Shown here: piece after piece, positions 13,095 to 22,272 of the stretch
How the letters are laid out: every line of letters begins with the position of its first letter
Position numbering within the stretch: position 1 is the stretch's first letter
IMG/VR virus record: IMGVR_UViG_3300006749_000160
Span: 1 to 22,365 of that record
Direction: 5' to 3' (one strand)
Source of the DNA: a virus
DNA: 22,365 nt
The notes under the pieces: generated by a model
Seen by the model: only the letters and a program-made list of their open reading frames with translations
Told to the model about the DNA's origin: nothing
Databases searched by the model: none
Program-made: the position numbers and the translations under genes

Positions 13095-13183
13095 ACAAGA
13101 AACAAAATCCTGTATACCGTTTTATGTTCTTGTTGTATCTCGCGTAGGGGCTCAAAGTAAGTATTTGTAAAAGAATAAAACCC

Positions 13184-13212
13184 AGATATCAGATATCAGA
13201 TATTAAAATATC
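13184..13212. repeat. Tandem AGATATC repeats with inverted repeat, candidate operator
   Basis: Three adjacent 7-base units, AGATATC, AGATATC and AGATATT (13184-13204), run into an inverted repeat GATATT-AA-AATATC (13199-13212). Each GATATC core is itself palindromic. A further AGATATC occurs just inside the first gene on the right (13355-13361). The cluster sits midway between two divergent genes, where a repressor or initiator could control both directions. Its function is not known, and AT-rich sequence makes such words more likely by chance. Confidence 0.4.
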
Positions 13213-13232
13213 GGATGGATCACAAAGATAAC

Positions 13233-13258
13233 TTTTTTGTTTTAACCCTATATATAAA
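13233..13258 (+). promoter_or_regulatory. Candidate AT-rich promoter for the rightward replication module
   Basis: A T-tract (TTTTTT at 13233) is followed by TATATATAAA (13249-13258), about 60 bases upstream of the first GTG of the replication module. The -10-like sequence TATAAA is reasonable, but no -35 lies at ideal spacing. It is supported mainly by position downstream of the repeat cluster and at the head of a run of co-directional genes. Confidence 0.3.
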
Positions 13259-13319
13259 AGTGTAAGGTGGCATTGTTTGGTAATAACACCAGACTAGAAA
13301 GCAAGCGGAGTAGAAAGCC

Positions 13320-18500: not shown

Positions 18501-19526
18501 ATGGCACATATGGTAGAAACAATGGCTTATGCAGGACAGGTTCCTTGGCATGGGCTTGGTGAAAAAGTTGAGCATAATCTTACACCTGAAGAGATGCTCA
18601 AAGCCGCAGGGCTTGATTGGACAGTAAGTAAACGTCCCGTTTATTATGCTGATAAACCAAATACATGGGATCTTAATGACCCACGCGGTGAAGCAGATTT
18701 GCTTCGCGCTAATGAACATTATGTGGTTGTTCGTGATACAGATAACCGCGTATTATCCCACTGTGGTGAGGGGTTCATACCTTTCCAAAACCATGAAACA
18801 ATGTCCTTCTTTAAAAAGTTTACTGAGGCAGGGCATATGGAGATGGATACTGCTGGTAGCCTAAGTGATGGCGAGCGTGTCTGGGGCTTGGCTAAAATCA
18901 AGAAGGGCTTCAAACTAGCTGGCGGTGATGATATTGAAGGTTACTTACTTATGGCTAACAGTCACAAAGTTGGCACAGCTATGACGGTAATGTTCACACC
19001 CATCCGCGTAGTATGCAATAATACGATTACCTTGGCTCTCAACCAAGAGGGTACGACTGGTAAGTTCCGTGTATTACATTTGCAAATGTTTGATGAGGAA
19101 ATTATGCAAGCCGCTGAGACTGCACTTGGTATTAGTGGTGAGCAAATGGCTAAGTTCCAAGAACAGTCAGAGTTCCTTGCCAGTAAGCGAGCCACTAAAG
19201 AGCAGATAGATAACTACATTGCTGAGTTGTTCCAGCCTAAATTACTTATTGAACGTGCTAAGTCTAAAGAGTCTGACTTACCACCATTACATGAGGAGTT
19301 TAGCAAAACATCACAGTCAATACTGGAGGCTATTGAAACATCTCCAGGACATGACCTTAAATCTGCTAAAGGAACTTGGTGGGGAGCACTCAATGGTGTG
19401 ACATATGTTATGGATCACCAAAAGCGAGCCAAGACTCGTGACCATGCATTAAACTCTGCATGGTTTGGTTCAGCCGCTACTACTAAACGTAAGGCTATGA
19501 CCAAGGCACTTGAGTACGCCGCATAA
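18501..19526 (+). CDS. DUF932 / TIGR03299 phage-plasmid protein
   Basis: A 341-residue protein of the DUF932 family (TIGR03299, found on phages and plasmids), whose biochemical function is not established. The family opening is clear: MVETMAYAGQVPWHGLGEKV (residues 4-23), followed by DWTVSKRPVYY, the central HYVVVRDTDNRVLSHCGEGF, then IRVVCNNTITLAL, and the C-terminal GTWWGALNGVTYVMDHQKRA. Length matches the family. It has no signal peptide or membrane segment, so it acts in the cytoplasm. Members usually lie near replication and recombination genes, as here. The ATG follows an excellent AAAGGAGATATATT leader. Two strong RNA hairpins begin within about six bases after the stop codon. Confidence 0.88.
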   Translation: MAHMVETMAYAGQVPWHGLGEKVEHNLTPEEMLKAAGLDWTVSKRPVYYADKPNTWDLNDPRGEADLLRANEHYVVVRDTDNRVLSHCGEGFIPFQNHETMSFFKKFTEAGHMEMDTAGSLSDGERVWGLAKIKKGFKLAGGDDIEGYLLMANSHKVGTAMTVMFTPIRVVCNNTITLALNQEGTTGKFRVLHLQMFDEEIMQAAETALGISGEQMAKFQEQSEFLASKRATKEQIDNYIAELFQPKLLIERAKSKESDLPPLHEEFSKTSQSILEAIETSPGHDLKSAKGTWWGALNGVTYVMDHQKRAKTRDHALNSAWFGSAATTKRKAMTKALEYAA

Positions 19527-19531
19527 GATGT

Positions 19532-19596
19532 GGAGGTGGGCAGAAGCCCACCTCTCGCCTGATGCCCTGCTAAGAGAGAACTTTTAGTGGGGCATT
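19532..19596 (+). other. Two tandem RNA hairpins with identical AGAA loops
   Basis: The first hairpin pairs GAGGTGGGC (19533-19541) with GCCCACCTC (19546-19554) perfectly, plus one outer G-U, around an AGAA loop. Five bases on, 19561-19576 can pair with 19581-19596 over 16 consecutive positions, four of them G-U, again around AGAA (19577-19580). Neither hairpin is followed by a U-tract, so a simple intrinsic terminator is unlikely. The site follows the DUF932 stop and precedes a well-translated gene by about 75 bases. It may be an RNA processing (RNase III-type), stability or protein-binding element, or a small RNA. Confidence 0.65.
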
Positions 19597-19671
19597 GGAG
19601 TATTTAATGCTTGCTTGATTCCCTATATGTAGTTAGAGTTTTTATATTAGCCCCATAGAAAGGAGGCACTC

Positions 19672-20289
19672 ATGGCAGCTATCAAAACTTATGCGGTGTT
19701 AGAAAATGATAATACCAGTAATCGTAACGATGCCTACTCTTACTTTGTATTCAAATCCTTGCGTGAGTTAAAGGCGTGTAAAGAACTAAACGAGCATAGT
19801 ATTGTGTTTGCTGAAGTTCAACAGTTACAGGATACCTATAGTGAGGAAGAGTTGCGGAGTGTAGTTGCCGCTACAGTTGGTGAGTGTGCCTTACCAAATT
19901 TCCCTAGCTTTCATAAAAACTTTGCAGAGTTTGTACATGAACGAGCTAAAAAATATAAACCTGTTTTAAAGGAGAAACAAATGACTGCTGAAATAGTAGA
20001 TATTACGCCGGAGCCACAGGGTATTGCGTCTGTTGCCACAGAAAAACCAAAGCGTGTGGCAAAATCTAAGTATGATGAAAATGCTAAAATACTTTTGCCT
20101 ACAGGATCAATGGGCATGTTCGTTAATCCATATCGTAAAAATAGTAATCGGTGGCATAATTTTGAAGCCTTAACCAGATCGGATACAGTGGGTGAGGCTC
20201 TTGCTGCTATGAAAAAGTTAAGTCCAGGAGGCAATAGTGTTGATATTCGCCTTGCTATTGAAAAAGGTGCTATCAAGCTAGGAGAATAA
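19672..20289 (+). CDS. Two-part phage protein with probable internal translation start
   Basis: A 205-residue protein that seems to join two parts. The N-terminal 103 residues (for example NRNDAYSYFVFKSLRELKAC) are not recognised. The C-terminal 102 residues start at Met104 and contain KYDENAKILLPTG, then FVNPYRKNSNRWHNFEAL, then DTVGEALAAM and DIRLAIEKGAI. They resemble a stand-alone small protein family of phages and mobile elements with the layout K-Y-D-xx-A, then NPxRxxSxxxxxF, then TVGExLAA, then DxxxAxxxGxI. Their function is unknown. A strong ribosome site precedes Met104, so the second part may also be made alone. The first ATG follows an excellent AAAGGAGG. The stop lies two bases before the next ATG. 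Confidence 0.75.
   Translation: MAAIKTYAVLENDNTSNRNDAYSYFVFKSLRELKACKELNEHSIVFAEVQQLQDTYSEEELRSVVAATVGECALPNFPSFHKNFAEFVHERAKKYKPVLKEKQMTAEIVDITPEPQGIASVATEKPKRVAKSKYDENAKILLPTGSMGMFVNPYRKNSNRWHNFEALTRSDTVGEALAAMKKLSPGGNSVDIRLAIEKGAIKLGE
19968..19983 (+). promoter_or_regulatory. Internal ribosome-binding site with in-frame ATG
   Basis: AAAGGAG (19968-19974) lies six bases before an in-frame ATG (19981-19983) that is codon 104 of the surrounding gene. Strength and spacing equal those of real starts nearby, such as the one at 18501. It would give a 102-residue product made of only the conserved C-terminal part. The alternative is chance, because the bases also encode Lys-Glu-Lys-Gln. Confidence 0.5.
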
Positions 20290-20291
20290 TT

Positions 20292-21188
20292 ATGGAGAAC
20301 ATAGAAAGGTTCTGCTACTGGATTAATGAGCGTCATGCCATTTATCAAAAAAGAGCCAAGGGGCTTCCTGCCCCTTGGACAGAAGACACTATCTTACAAC
20401 AATATAAATTCACAAACCCTTTCCGTGAGAATGATAGGGTAACTGTTTGGATGCGGCAAAACTGGACAAAGCCAAATGATAACCGCCCACATGGTGAGAT
20501 GATATTTAACTGTTGTATGTTTCGTATGGTTGGAACTAGTGAGTTTGCTGAAGCGCATGGTTGGGTAGAAGAGTTTAATCCTGAGCATACTAAGTCTTTG
20601 ATTGAAGAAAGGTTGAAGCAGGGTTTACGGACTTTTACTGGTGCATATATAATCACTAACCAAGGACTCAAAGCACCTAAATCGGAGGTAGTTGTTGACC
20701 ATTTCCTTTCGCCAATATGGGAAAACAAAGAAGCGTTGGCGCAGATTGCCACCGAAACACAGTCGTTGGAAGAAGTACACAAAGCGTTGGCGGCATATAA
20801 AGGATGGGGAGGGGGAGGTTTTATGTCATACGAGGTTGTTACCGACCTCAACTACACACCAGTCCTTGCCAAAGCCGAAGACAAATACAAATGGGCAAAC
20901 GCTGGTCCGGGAGCAAAGCGTGGCCTCAACAGGATCCACGATAGGCCGCTCACAAAAGCATTAGGTGCTTATCAAAGCAATAGGGAGATGCAAGATTTAC
21001 TCGAAGATTCACACCGTTATCTTGGCAAACACATCCCGACTTTGGCGGTGGATATGCGCTGTATTGAACATAGCTTATGCGAGTGGGATAAATATGAGCG
21101 CGTTAGGCTTGGTCAAGGCACTCCGCGTAGTAAGTATAATGGACTACAGAGTTCAGTGCTGGAGGCTCCGATTGGGACGGTGGCGTAA
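20292..21188 (+). CDS. Alpha-glutamyl/putrescinyl thymine pyrophosphorylase-like protein (HMUDK_hel family)
   Basis: A 298-residue predicted DNA base hypermodification enzyme. In the known pathways, 5-hydroxymethyl-dU in phage DNA is pyrophosphorylated by a kinase, and enzymes of this DNA-glycosylase-like helical family then replace the pyrophosphate with an amino acid or polyamine. Family hallmarks visible here are ENIERFCYWINERHAIY (2-18), KFTNPFRENDRVTVW (39-53), FTGAYI (115-120), the glycosylase-like GWGGGGFMSYEVVTDL (171-186), WANAGPGAKRGLNRIH (201-216) and IEHSLCEWDKYERVRLGQG (258-276). Length is normal for a stand-alone member. No P-loop kinase domain is fused to it. The ATG follows AGGAGA. 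The second half is clearly richer in G+C than the first. Downstream genes also belong to modification families. The substrate cannot be told from sequence. Confidence 0.78.
   Translation: MENIERFCYWINERHAIYQKRAKGLPAPWTEDTILQQYKFTNPFRENDRVTVWMRQNWTKPNDNRPHGEMIFNCCMFRMVGTSEFAEAHGWVEEFNPEHTKSLIEERLKQGLRTFTGAYIITNQGLKAPKSEVVVDHFLSPIWENKEALAQIATETQSLEEVHKALAAYKGWGGGGFMSYEVVTDLNYTPVLAKAEDKYKWANAGPGAKRGLNRIHDRPLTKALGAYQSNREMQDLLEDSHRYLGKHIPTLAVDMRCIEHSLCEWDKYERVRLGQGTPRSKYNGLQSSVLEAPIGTVA
20356..20378 (+). repeat. Perfect 9-bp inverted repeat inside the pyrophosphorylase-like gene
   Basis: CCAAGGGGC (20356-20364) and GCCCCTTGG (20370-20378) flank a 5-base spacer. In mRNA this makes a very stable hairpin at codons 22-29, encoding Lys-Gly-Leu-Pro-Ala-Pro. 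It could slow early elongation or bind a protein. It may also simply reflect the coding of a conserved Gly-Leu-Pro-Ala-Pro-Trp segment. Confidence 0.5.
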
Positions 21189-21190
21189 TT

Positions 21191-21490
21191 ATGTTGTGTC
21201 CAAAATGCAATGGCAAATCCGAGGTCGTAGACAGTCGTCCTTATCAAGGCACAATACGGAGGAAGAGGAACTGTCCGAAATGCAAATACAATTATCGGAC
21301 ATTGGAACTATTAGAGCCGCAAGAGCCGCCGAAGCCGAAGCCGAAAGCAGAGCCAAAACCCAAAACCAGAAAACGAGTGTTAAAACCAAAAAGAAAACAA
21401 ACGATGTTTGAGCTCGATTACATGAGTGATGAAGAATTAGAAAGGGCAGTGCTTGAAGGGCAAGTAAGGTTTGATGAGGATGAGATATGA
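21191..21490 (+). CDS. NrdR-like zinc-ribbon protein lacking the ATP cone
   Basis: A 99-residue protein. Residues 1-39 are a near-complete NrdR-type zinc ribbon: CPKC (3-6), VVDSRP (12-17), RRKRNCPKC (23-31), then YRTLE. Cys3, Cys6, Cys28 and Cys31 would bind Zn. Bacterial NrdR (about 150 residues) joins this ribbon to an ATP cone and represses ribonucleotide reductase genes. Here the cone is absent, replaced by a Pro/Lys-rich linker (42-70) and a short acidic helical end (YMSDEELERAVLEG). It may bind DNA or RNA, possibly as a regulator or adaptor for the neighbouring modification enzymes; that is inference. The start lies two bases after the upstream stop, with only a weak ribosome site. The stop overlaps the next start (ATGA). 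Confidence 0.75.
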   Translation: MLCPKCNGKSEVVDSRPYQGTIRRKRNCPKCKYNYRTLELLEPQEPPKPKPKAEPKPKTRKRVLKPKRKQTMFELDYMSDEELERAVLEGQVRFDEDEI

Positions 21491-22272
21491 TACCAATATA
21501 TATTCCAACTAGGGGCAGGATGAATAACCAAGTTACTTGGCAAAGCATTGGTCCGGAGGGCAGAGAGCATGCTGTTCTTGTATGCCCACAAGATGAAGTA
21601 AACTGGCATACGAGACAGGGTCGGTATTGTTTAAATCGTGGTGATTTAAAAGGTATCAATAATGTAAGGCAGTTCATATTAGAACATGCCGTGGAGCAGA
21701 AGCATGATAAAATTATTATTCTGGATGATGATCTTATATTTGGTCGCCGCATACATGGGCTGGCTCCCAACTTAAGAAAAACAAATCAAGAAGAGATGCA
21801 TGAGTTATGGGAGCGCATGGAGTGGTTGTTGAATAACTTTACTCATGTGGGACTTAGCCCAAGGCAAATGAATGATAAGCACTTCCCTGATACAGTTAAG
21901 TATGGTATGCGACAAAATGCTGTTCACGCCATACGTCCTGAAATTATTCATGGGTTGGGCATACGTTATGATACTATGGAGCTTATGGAAGATTATTACG
22001 TTACACTTGAGTTATTTAAGCATGGTCATGGTAATGCTGTAATTGTTGATTGGACATGGGATCAGCGTGGTGCTTCAGGTGCTGCTGGTGGCTGTAGTTC
22101 ATACCGCAATGCAGAGTTACAAGAACGTGCGAGCCTTGCCCTTGCTGAAAAGTTTCCTGATTATGTAAAAGCTGTACAGAAAGAAACTAAAACAGGTTGG
22201 GAGGGTATGAAAACACGTTGGGATGTTCGCGTACAATGGCGAAAGGCTGCTAAAGATGGCAACTGTATCTAA
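21487..22272 (+). CDS. TET-associated-type DNA glycosyltransferase (TAGT family)
   Basis: A 261-residue glycosyltransferase-A-like enzyme that probably transfers a sugar to a hydroxymethylated base in phage DNA. Visible features are IPIYIPTRGR (2-11) at the N-terminus, the DxD-type metal/nucleotide-sugar site KIIILDDDLIF (75-85, with Asp80-82), FTHVGLSPRQMND (118-130), MEDYYVTLELFKHG (167-180), GGCSSYR (201-207), and the characteristic ending KETKTGWEG (232-240) with DVRVQWRKA (246-254). I know this set from TAGT proteins. In characterised phages, TAGT follows TET-type dioxygenases and glycosylates 5-hydroxymethylcytosine. No TET gene lies in the window, so the target base and sugar are open. 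It overlaps the zinc-ribbon gene by four bases and the radical SAM gene by 17. Confidence 0.75.
   Translation: MIPIYIPTRGRMNNQVTWQSIGPEGREHAVLVCPQDEVNWHTRQGRYCLNRGDLKGINNVRQFILEHAVEQKHDKIIILDDDLIFGRRIHGLAPNLRKTNQEEMHELWERMEWLLNNFTHVGLSPRQMNDKHFPDTVKYGMRQNAVHAIRPEIIHGLGIRYDTMELMEDYYVTLELFKHGHGNAVIVDWTWDQRGASGAAGGCSSYRNAELQERASLALAEKFPDYVKAVQKETKTGWEGMKTRWDVRVQWRKAAKDGNCI

Follow-up and report, generated by a model that had tools for sequence, protein, structure and literature searches.

Covarying twin hairpins between a DUF932 gene and DNA-hypermodification genes in a clade of uncultured phages

The catalogue of structured RNAs from uncultured phages is poor. Among the described systems that come closest to the element analyzed here, intrinsic terminators combine a stable hairpin with a U-tract, the RNase III sites of T7-type phages are intercistronic double-stranded stems in phage mRNA, and strict AGNN loops are bound by yeast Rnt1p. 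A Rho-trimmed class of 3' ends is defined by a hairpin without a strong U-tract at the gene end (PMC13289151). The put RNAs of phage HK022 are about 70 nt long with two stem-loops, lie downstream of early promoters, and have stems that hold a triplex and noncanonical pairs (PMC9378689).

The window, that is, the whole stretch of DNA analyzed, is a 22,365-base virus record in which a pair of abutting hairpins follows a DUF932 gene. These twin hairpins share with the U-tract-less 3'-end hairpins of Rho-dependent or processed bacterial transcripts a strong hairpin soon after the stop codon, the lack of a proper U-tract, and a likely transcript boundary, and they agree with the hairpin part of the description of the Rho-trimmed class; they differ from them in their twin abutting stems, their loop constraint, an invariant block, and the lack of a C-rich/G-poor stretch. 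With HK022 put, they have in common a length of about 70 nt and two adjacent stem-loops, whereas put lies just after a promoter and the twin element lies 3 nt after a stop codon and has nearly perfect stems. A T7-type RNase III site is one long hairpin, unlike the two tetraloop-capped stems predicted here. Finally, the likeness to intrinsic terminators consists of a stable stem and of hairpins with a U-tract and a positive terminator index at the same place in some relatives, but the twin element itself is poor in U-tract and its index is negative in all four twin members scored.

The twin hairpins and their gene context

PHROG families were matched by 8 of the 10 proteins tested from the window. 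The features at and around the hairpins, all on the + strand, are as follows.

18501-19526 (+): DUF932 gene, 341 aa (Pfam PF06067, E 5.6e-46; phrog_1221, E 4.7e-63), with the twin hairpins 3' of its mRNA
19530-19558 (+): hairpin 1 (hp1), 12 bp, one bulged U at 19555, loop AGAA at 19542-19545 (RNA fold)
19559-19598 (+): hairpin 2 (hp2), 18 bp, loop AGAA at 19577-19580 (RNA fold)
19599-19632 (+), alignment columns 73-106: conserved block of 34 nt, AGTATTTAATGCTTGCTTGATTCCCTATATGTAG, whose distance from hp2 is fixed
19611-19639 (+): candidate promoter TTGCTT-17-TAGAGT, inferred, with 7 of 12 sigma-70 consensus letters
19654-19663 (+): putative ribosome-binding stretch CATAGAAAGG of the 205-aa gene, read from the letters
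19672-20289 (+): next gene, 205 aa, without family match
20292-21188 (+): 5-hmdU DNA kinase helical-domain protein (DNA hypermodification; PF18723, E 5.2e-52)

The DUF932 stop codon ends at 19526, and the twin element begins 3 nt downstream; hp1 and hp2 abut with zero unpaired bases between them, and the whole element covers 19530-19598 (69 nt, +). A preliminary description had placed two stems of 9-10 and 16 bp, five bases apart and closed by AGAA loops, at 19532-19596. Its coordinates and core stems are confirmed (10 bp at 19532-19555 and 16 bp at 19561-19596, with a five-base gap), and the core lengths are right; the full fold is longer, at 12 and 18 bp, and has no gap. Likewise, the four G-U pairs that it counted in the 16-bp core become five in hp2 at full length, and the 30-pair structure has six. 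Its statement that neither hairpin has a U-tract is fair, since the hp2 tail, AGUAUUUAAU, is U-rich but interrupted and has a poor terminator index, though the loosest terminator scan flags it. The comparison of folding energy with shuffled controls, which it had proposed as a check, came out in favor of the hairpins: 19528-19605 folds as RNA at -48.1 kcal/mol against a shuffle mean of -22.2 (standard deviation, 3.2; z, -8.1), and 0 of 200 shuffles match this value. When uninterrupted stems of at least 9 bp were considered on both strands, hp2 (-24.4 kcal/mol) and hp1 (-19.6 kcal/mol) were the two most stable hairpins of the window, followed by hp1 on the opposite strand (-18.6 kcal/mol) and a hairpin at 20356-20378 (-18.1 kcal/mol). 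Among 40 dinucleotide-shuffled versions of the window, of which a single strand was scanned, -19 kcal/mol was reached by one hairpin and 15 bp by six counts, nested versions being counted apart.

No DNA similar to 18501-20289 was found in the phage collection, where the best place for the DUF932 protein is 39.9% identical. The 205-aa gene product had no match in PHROGs, Pfam, or the phage collection (tblastn), and the YATAGAAAGGRR of its ribosome-binding stretch is present in 39 of 85 loci examined. Farther downstream, at 20292-22272, the window holds genes for thymine-type DNA hypermodification, namely, those for the 5-hmdU DNA kinase helical domain, an NrdR-like zinc ribbon, and a TET-associated glycosyltransferase. 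The hairpin at 20356-20378, a strong 9-bp one of the form CCAAGGGGC TTCCT GCCCCTTGG, lies inside the 5-hmdU kinase-like gene.

Covariation, strand preference, and loop constraint

An IMG/VR protein scan with the DUF932 product gave 332 relatives, of which the best 80 were kept, and the twin element was recognized by reading the stretch 3' of each DUF932 gene; four of the 80 loci (L038, L053, L066, and L067) end inside this gene and are uninformative for its 3' side. Within these best 80, homologues of the twin hairpins were recognized in 21 IMG/VR contigs and amount, together with the window, to 12 distinct sequences. In the alignment of the 12, standard pairs occupy 358 of the 360 cells, and 11 of the 30 pairs change on both sides, nearly all double changes stemming from two deep members (L013 and L024) of a set that is related throughout (DUF932 nucleotide identity to the window, 77 to 99.9%); 0 of 500 shuffles reach either value. 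The both-side changes affect 4 of the 12 pairs of hp1 (98.6% of cells paired) and 7 of the 18 pairs of hp2 (100% of cells paired), and 12 of the 30 stem pairs never vary. When the partner is slid by 1 to 3 columns, pairing falls to 42 to 56%, with 0 to 3 pairs changing on both sides. RNAalifold, run unguided, recovers the same two stems, together with further downstream pairs that have little covariation. On the DUF932 gene tree, the pair is retained on 15 of the 16 double-change branches, the exception being a mismatch in L013, and this sequence also accounts for both nonpairing cells of the alignment.

G-U pairs occupy 74 of the 360 cells and A-C none. In an RNA of the opposite strand, every G-U becomes a mismatch. 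In each of the four sequences compared, the + strand gives a more stable fold than the - strand: the window (-48.1 versus -33.0 kcal/mol, the former value being that of a 78-nt stretch that includes the 69-nt element), L013 (-36.8 versus -28.0 kcal/mol), L024 (-50.4 versus -29.8 kcal/mol), and L023 (-48.4 versus -34.1 kcal/mol). The numbers of paired cells and double-change pairs and the presence of G-U without A-C therefore point to selection on the + strand RNA, and the conclusion that its structure is under selection is strongly supported. The preliminary description had suspected selection on RNA rather than DNA and had named a lack of conservation or covariation in close relatives as one half of what would refute its proposal; the suspicion is borne out, and the proposal withstood this half of the test. 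This strong covariation support for an element between DUF932 and DNA-hypermodification genes was obtained from public contigs alone.

The loops vary as well. In the 12 sequences, hp1 has AGAA, ATAA, or AAAA and hp2 has AGAA or ATAA, which gives the form ANAA. All five loop changes inferred on the DUF932 tree fall at position 2 and none at position 1, 3, or 4; the stems underwent 53 changes over 60 positions on the same tree. By a simple Poisson estimate, zero changes at six loop positions would be unlikely (about 0.005), and this figure is optimistic because 12 of the 30 stem pairs do not vary either. In the 59.6-kb contig of the twin member L001, these two are the only ones with an ANAA loop among 11 intergenic + strand tetraloop hairpins (18 gaps); such loops also occur on 8 of its 95 in-gene tetraloop hairpins, all at -8 kcal/mol or weaker, and the loop alone is therefore not rare. 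The pattern argues for constraint on three loop bases, which in itself names no partner, and we infer that a binding partner or a requirement of loop structure keeps the ANAA loops fixed. From the identity of the loops, the preliminary description had proposed recognition by a protein or an RNase; the fixed positions 1, 3, and 4 agree with this proposal, which their sequences continue to suggest, whereas the loops proved to differ at position 2. A strict AGNN tetraloop, the substrate of Rnt1p-type RNase III, was ruled out, given that ATAA and AAAA occur and that position 2 is G, T, or A.

A covariance-model search of 14 records found five twin-bearing contigs with one full copy each, the remaining matches being partial or opposite-strand echoes and one weak match (E 0.44) in a non-twin contig. 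Searches of the collections for further twin contigs with two DNA patterns and the 205-aa protein returned only known contigs, and none came to light when bacterial and archaeal genomes were scanned with one exact pattern. A scan with the hp1 core matched three contigs, namely, two twin contigs and L083; the latter was rejected as a twin member, as it is a GC-rich sequence without the rest of the element. Rfam 15 has 0 matches in the window at the gathering cutoff, the best weak match scoring 17.6 bits against a cutoff of 92, and among the papers listed no title or abstract opening describes this element or a matching tandem-hairpin phage RNA, which does not prove that it is unpublished. Within the reach of these searches, a single clade of uncultured phages has the element. 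This RNA is clade-specific and new to Rfam, and its general kind, that of intercistronic or 3'-end hairpins, is known.

The same place in other relatives and the downstream block

To compare the stretch 3' of DUF932 across relatives, 59 of the 80 loci were examined, the other 21 being duplicates or ending too early, and identical stretches were merged. The resulting 54 stretches comprise 11 twin members and 43 others, 25 of which have a DUF932 identity of at least 58%. An uninterrupted hairpin of -15 kcal/mol or stronger lies within 150 nt of the DUF932 stop codon in 23 of these 25 non-twin relatives, compared with 2 of 1,500 dinucleotide shuffles and 1 of 475 tiles of 150 nt from the 3 kb upstream; the remaining two, L041 and L046, have interrupted hairpins that the uninterrupted-stem scan missed. 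Relatives below 58% identity also reach -15 kcal/mol in 12 of 18 cases, which were left out of the count because some of these hairpins lie inside an overlapping next gene. The hairpins of the non-twin relatives are unrelated in sequence to the twin pair and have different loops, and in 10 of the 25, a gap of only 14 to 24 nt separates the hairpin end from the next start codon, which was assigned by mechanical calling. Of the 19 non-twin hairpins scored here, 11 have a positive terminator index Y (e.g., L030, +19.0; L040, +24.6; L065, +29.1; and L077, +19.0) and 8 have a negative one. Since a strong hairpin is present in 23 of 25 relatives and the index is positive in some and negative in others, the place selects for a hairpin, whether or not it is a terminator. 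In related phages a hairpin is kept here, but its sequence and type are freely swapped, with U-tract terminators at one end of the range and U-less twins at the other; these phages offer a natural test set for the setting of mRNA ends.

The 34-nt block that follows hp2 is invariant in 26 of its 34 columns in the 12 sequences, compared with 1 of the next 22 columns, and its spacing to hp2 is free of insertions and deletions. In IMG/VR, the block pattern occurs in 19 contigs, all of which (19/19) are among the 21 hairpin carriers; of the two carriers outside the pattern, L015 has a changed base and the L009 contig has the last 23 bases of the block. Within the alignment, TTGCTT is invariant and is followed, after a spacer of 16 or 17, by TAGAGT or TAGAAT. 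A related CTTG..ATTCACTACATATAGTTAAAAT block is retained in L030 and L036, whose hairpin is a different one and has a U-tract. Because of these sequences and this retention, the conserved block likely holds a weak sigma-70-like candidate promoter, possibly for the DNA-hypermodification genes; it scores below the threshold of a sigma-70 consensus scan. In L019 (5033-5107) and its kin L020 to L022, the post-DUF932 hairpin consists of TTCCCTACATA repeated in inverted orientation; some twin members have this sequence within the conserved block.

Possible roles of the pair

The twin hairpins are quite possibly a cis-acting RNA at the 3' end of the DUF932 message that defines this end and blocks exonuclease, which is the reading that we tentatively favor. 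The stackable hairpin pair would define and protect the 3' end of the DUF932 mRNA; read-through transcripts would be cut or released downstream, by an RNase or Rho, and 3'-to-5' exonucleases would then halt at hp2, so that the DUF932 mRNA would be uncoupled from the downstream hypermodification genes, which a promoter in the 34-nt block would probably restart. Several data speak against such a guard: the C-rich, G-poor composition expected of Rho sites is missing from 19599-19671 (16% C and 19% G), the candidate promoter fits the consensus weakly, and a generic guard needs neither twin hairpins, ANAA loops, nor an invariant block. The short distance to the next start codon in 10 of the 25 relatives is a further counterargument, because a 3'-end signal there would cut the expression of the next gene. 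A noncanonical intrinsic terminator, in which the two stacked stems would make RNA polymerase let go although the U-tract is poor, perhaps aided by host NusA/NusG or by a phage factor, is unlikely, though it draws on two observations: the loosest scan flags hp2 with the tail AGTATTTAAT, and 11 of the 19 non-twin hairpins scored at the same place are terminator-like, which leaves room for true termination as the general function. The hairpin of hp2 is stable enough (-24.4 kcal/mol), but its U-tract is deficient (nT 2.2; Y, -17.7); the two window hairpins, and hp2 in each of the three other twin members scored, have Y values between -7 and -18, and the tail is kept as a specific sequence, A and G included, and not as U-richness. 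We prefer a 3'-end guard to a terminator because a U-tract is lacking and the index fails here, while U-tract hairpins at two other gaps of the L001 contig pass (Y, +22.6 and +68.9).

The loops and the helix lend themselves to other readings. A dedicated two-site RNA recognition function of the pair, in which a phage or host factor on both ANAA loops of the stacked helix would switch transcription or mRNA fate between the DUF932 unit and the DNA-hypermodification operon, is doubtful. It is rather unlikely that the near-continuous helix of about 30 bp is an endonuclease processing site, cut by host RNase III or by an RNase recruited to the ANAA loops, that would separate the DUF932 and downstream mRNAs: the abutting 12- and 18-bp stems with compensatory changes and the restriction of loop changes to position 2 would suit such a site, but the G, T, or A at this position excludes strict AGNN, and we know of no host RNase specific for ANAA loops. 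PF00940 (T7-type RNA polymerase) was found in 0 of 11 related contigs by a search whose positive control was also blank, and its absence is not implied. A protein-binding mRNA operator, on which a phage or host RNA-binding protein would control stability or translation at the operon boundary through both loops, would explain why two unrelated stems have the same loop constraint and why these are the only intergenic ANAA hairpins of the L001 contig; it becomes improbable in view of the weak in-gene hairpins with the same loop, the derivation of the constraint from 12 closely related sequences whose stem pairs are equally invariant in 12 of 30 cases, the other loops of other relatives, and the want of a candidate protein. 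Two abutting stem-loops of 69 nt in the nascent + strand also recall a put-like RNA, which would stay on RNA polymerase and alter its behavior downstream as HK022 put does, but the stems are nearly perfect and sited after a gene, and this reading is very improbable; a scan for sigma-70 types lists no + strand promoter-like sites from 19023 to 20257. The last alternative, a DNA element (operator, replication, or recombination site) whose dyad was misread as hairpins, takes its support from the hp2 core AGAKAACTTTT, which recurs at 13226-13236 in another gap and at a third gap in some relatives. It is nearly excluded by the G-U evidence, since 74 G-U against 0 A-C cells and weaker - strand folds are unexpected of a DNA dyad, and the long stem is absent at the other two AGAKAACTTTT sites.

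The repeated motif was accordingly dropped as main evidence, the share of the hp2 site in it being weak. Exact copies of AGAKAACTTTT are found in the window (13226-13236), in L104 (9210-9220, -), and in L105 (3290-3300, -); the core recurs in the gap before the replication genes and, in G001, the contig of L001, also in a third gap. The three G001 copies are on the coding strand and in gaps of a mechanical gene list. Two of these gaps are identical over 15 bases, a length that 0 of 300 shuffles attain. When all three gaps are compared, with one of them widened by 15 bases to take in the whole motif, the shared length with one mismatch is 13 bases (equaled in 2 of 25 shuffles), 12 bases (18 of 25), or 11 bases (equaled or exceeded in 25 of 25). 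The copies may mark a site for a promoter or a regulator. The gap that precedes the replication genes (13156-13319) also contains repeated AGATATC/AGATATT units, AATATC, and CTATATATAAAAG; it is largely kept in relatives and looks like a regulated promoter.
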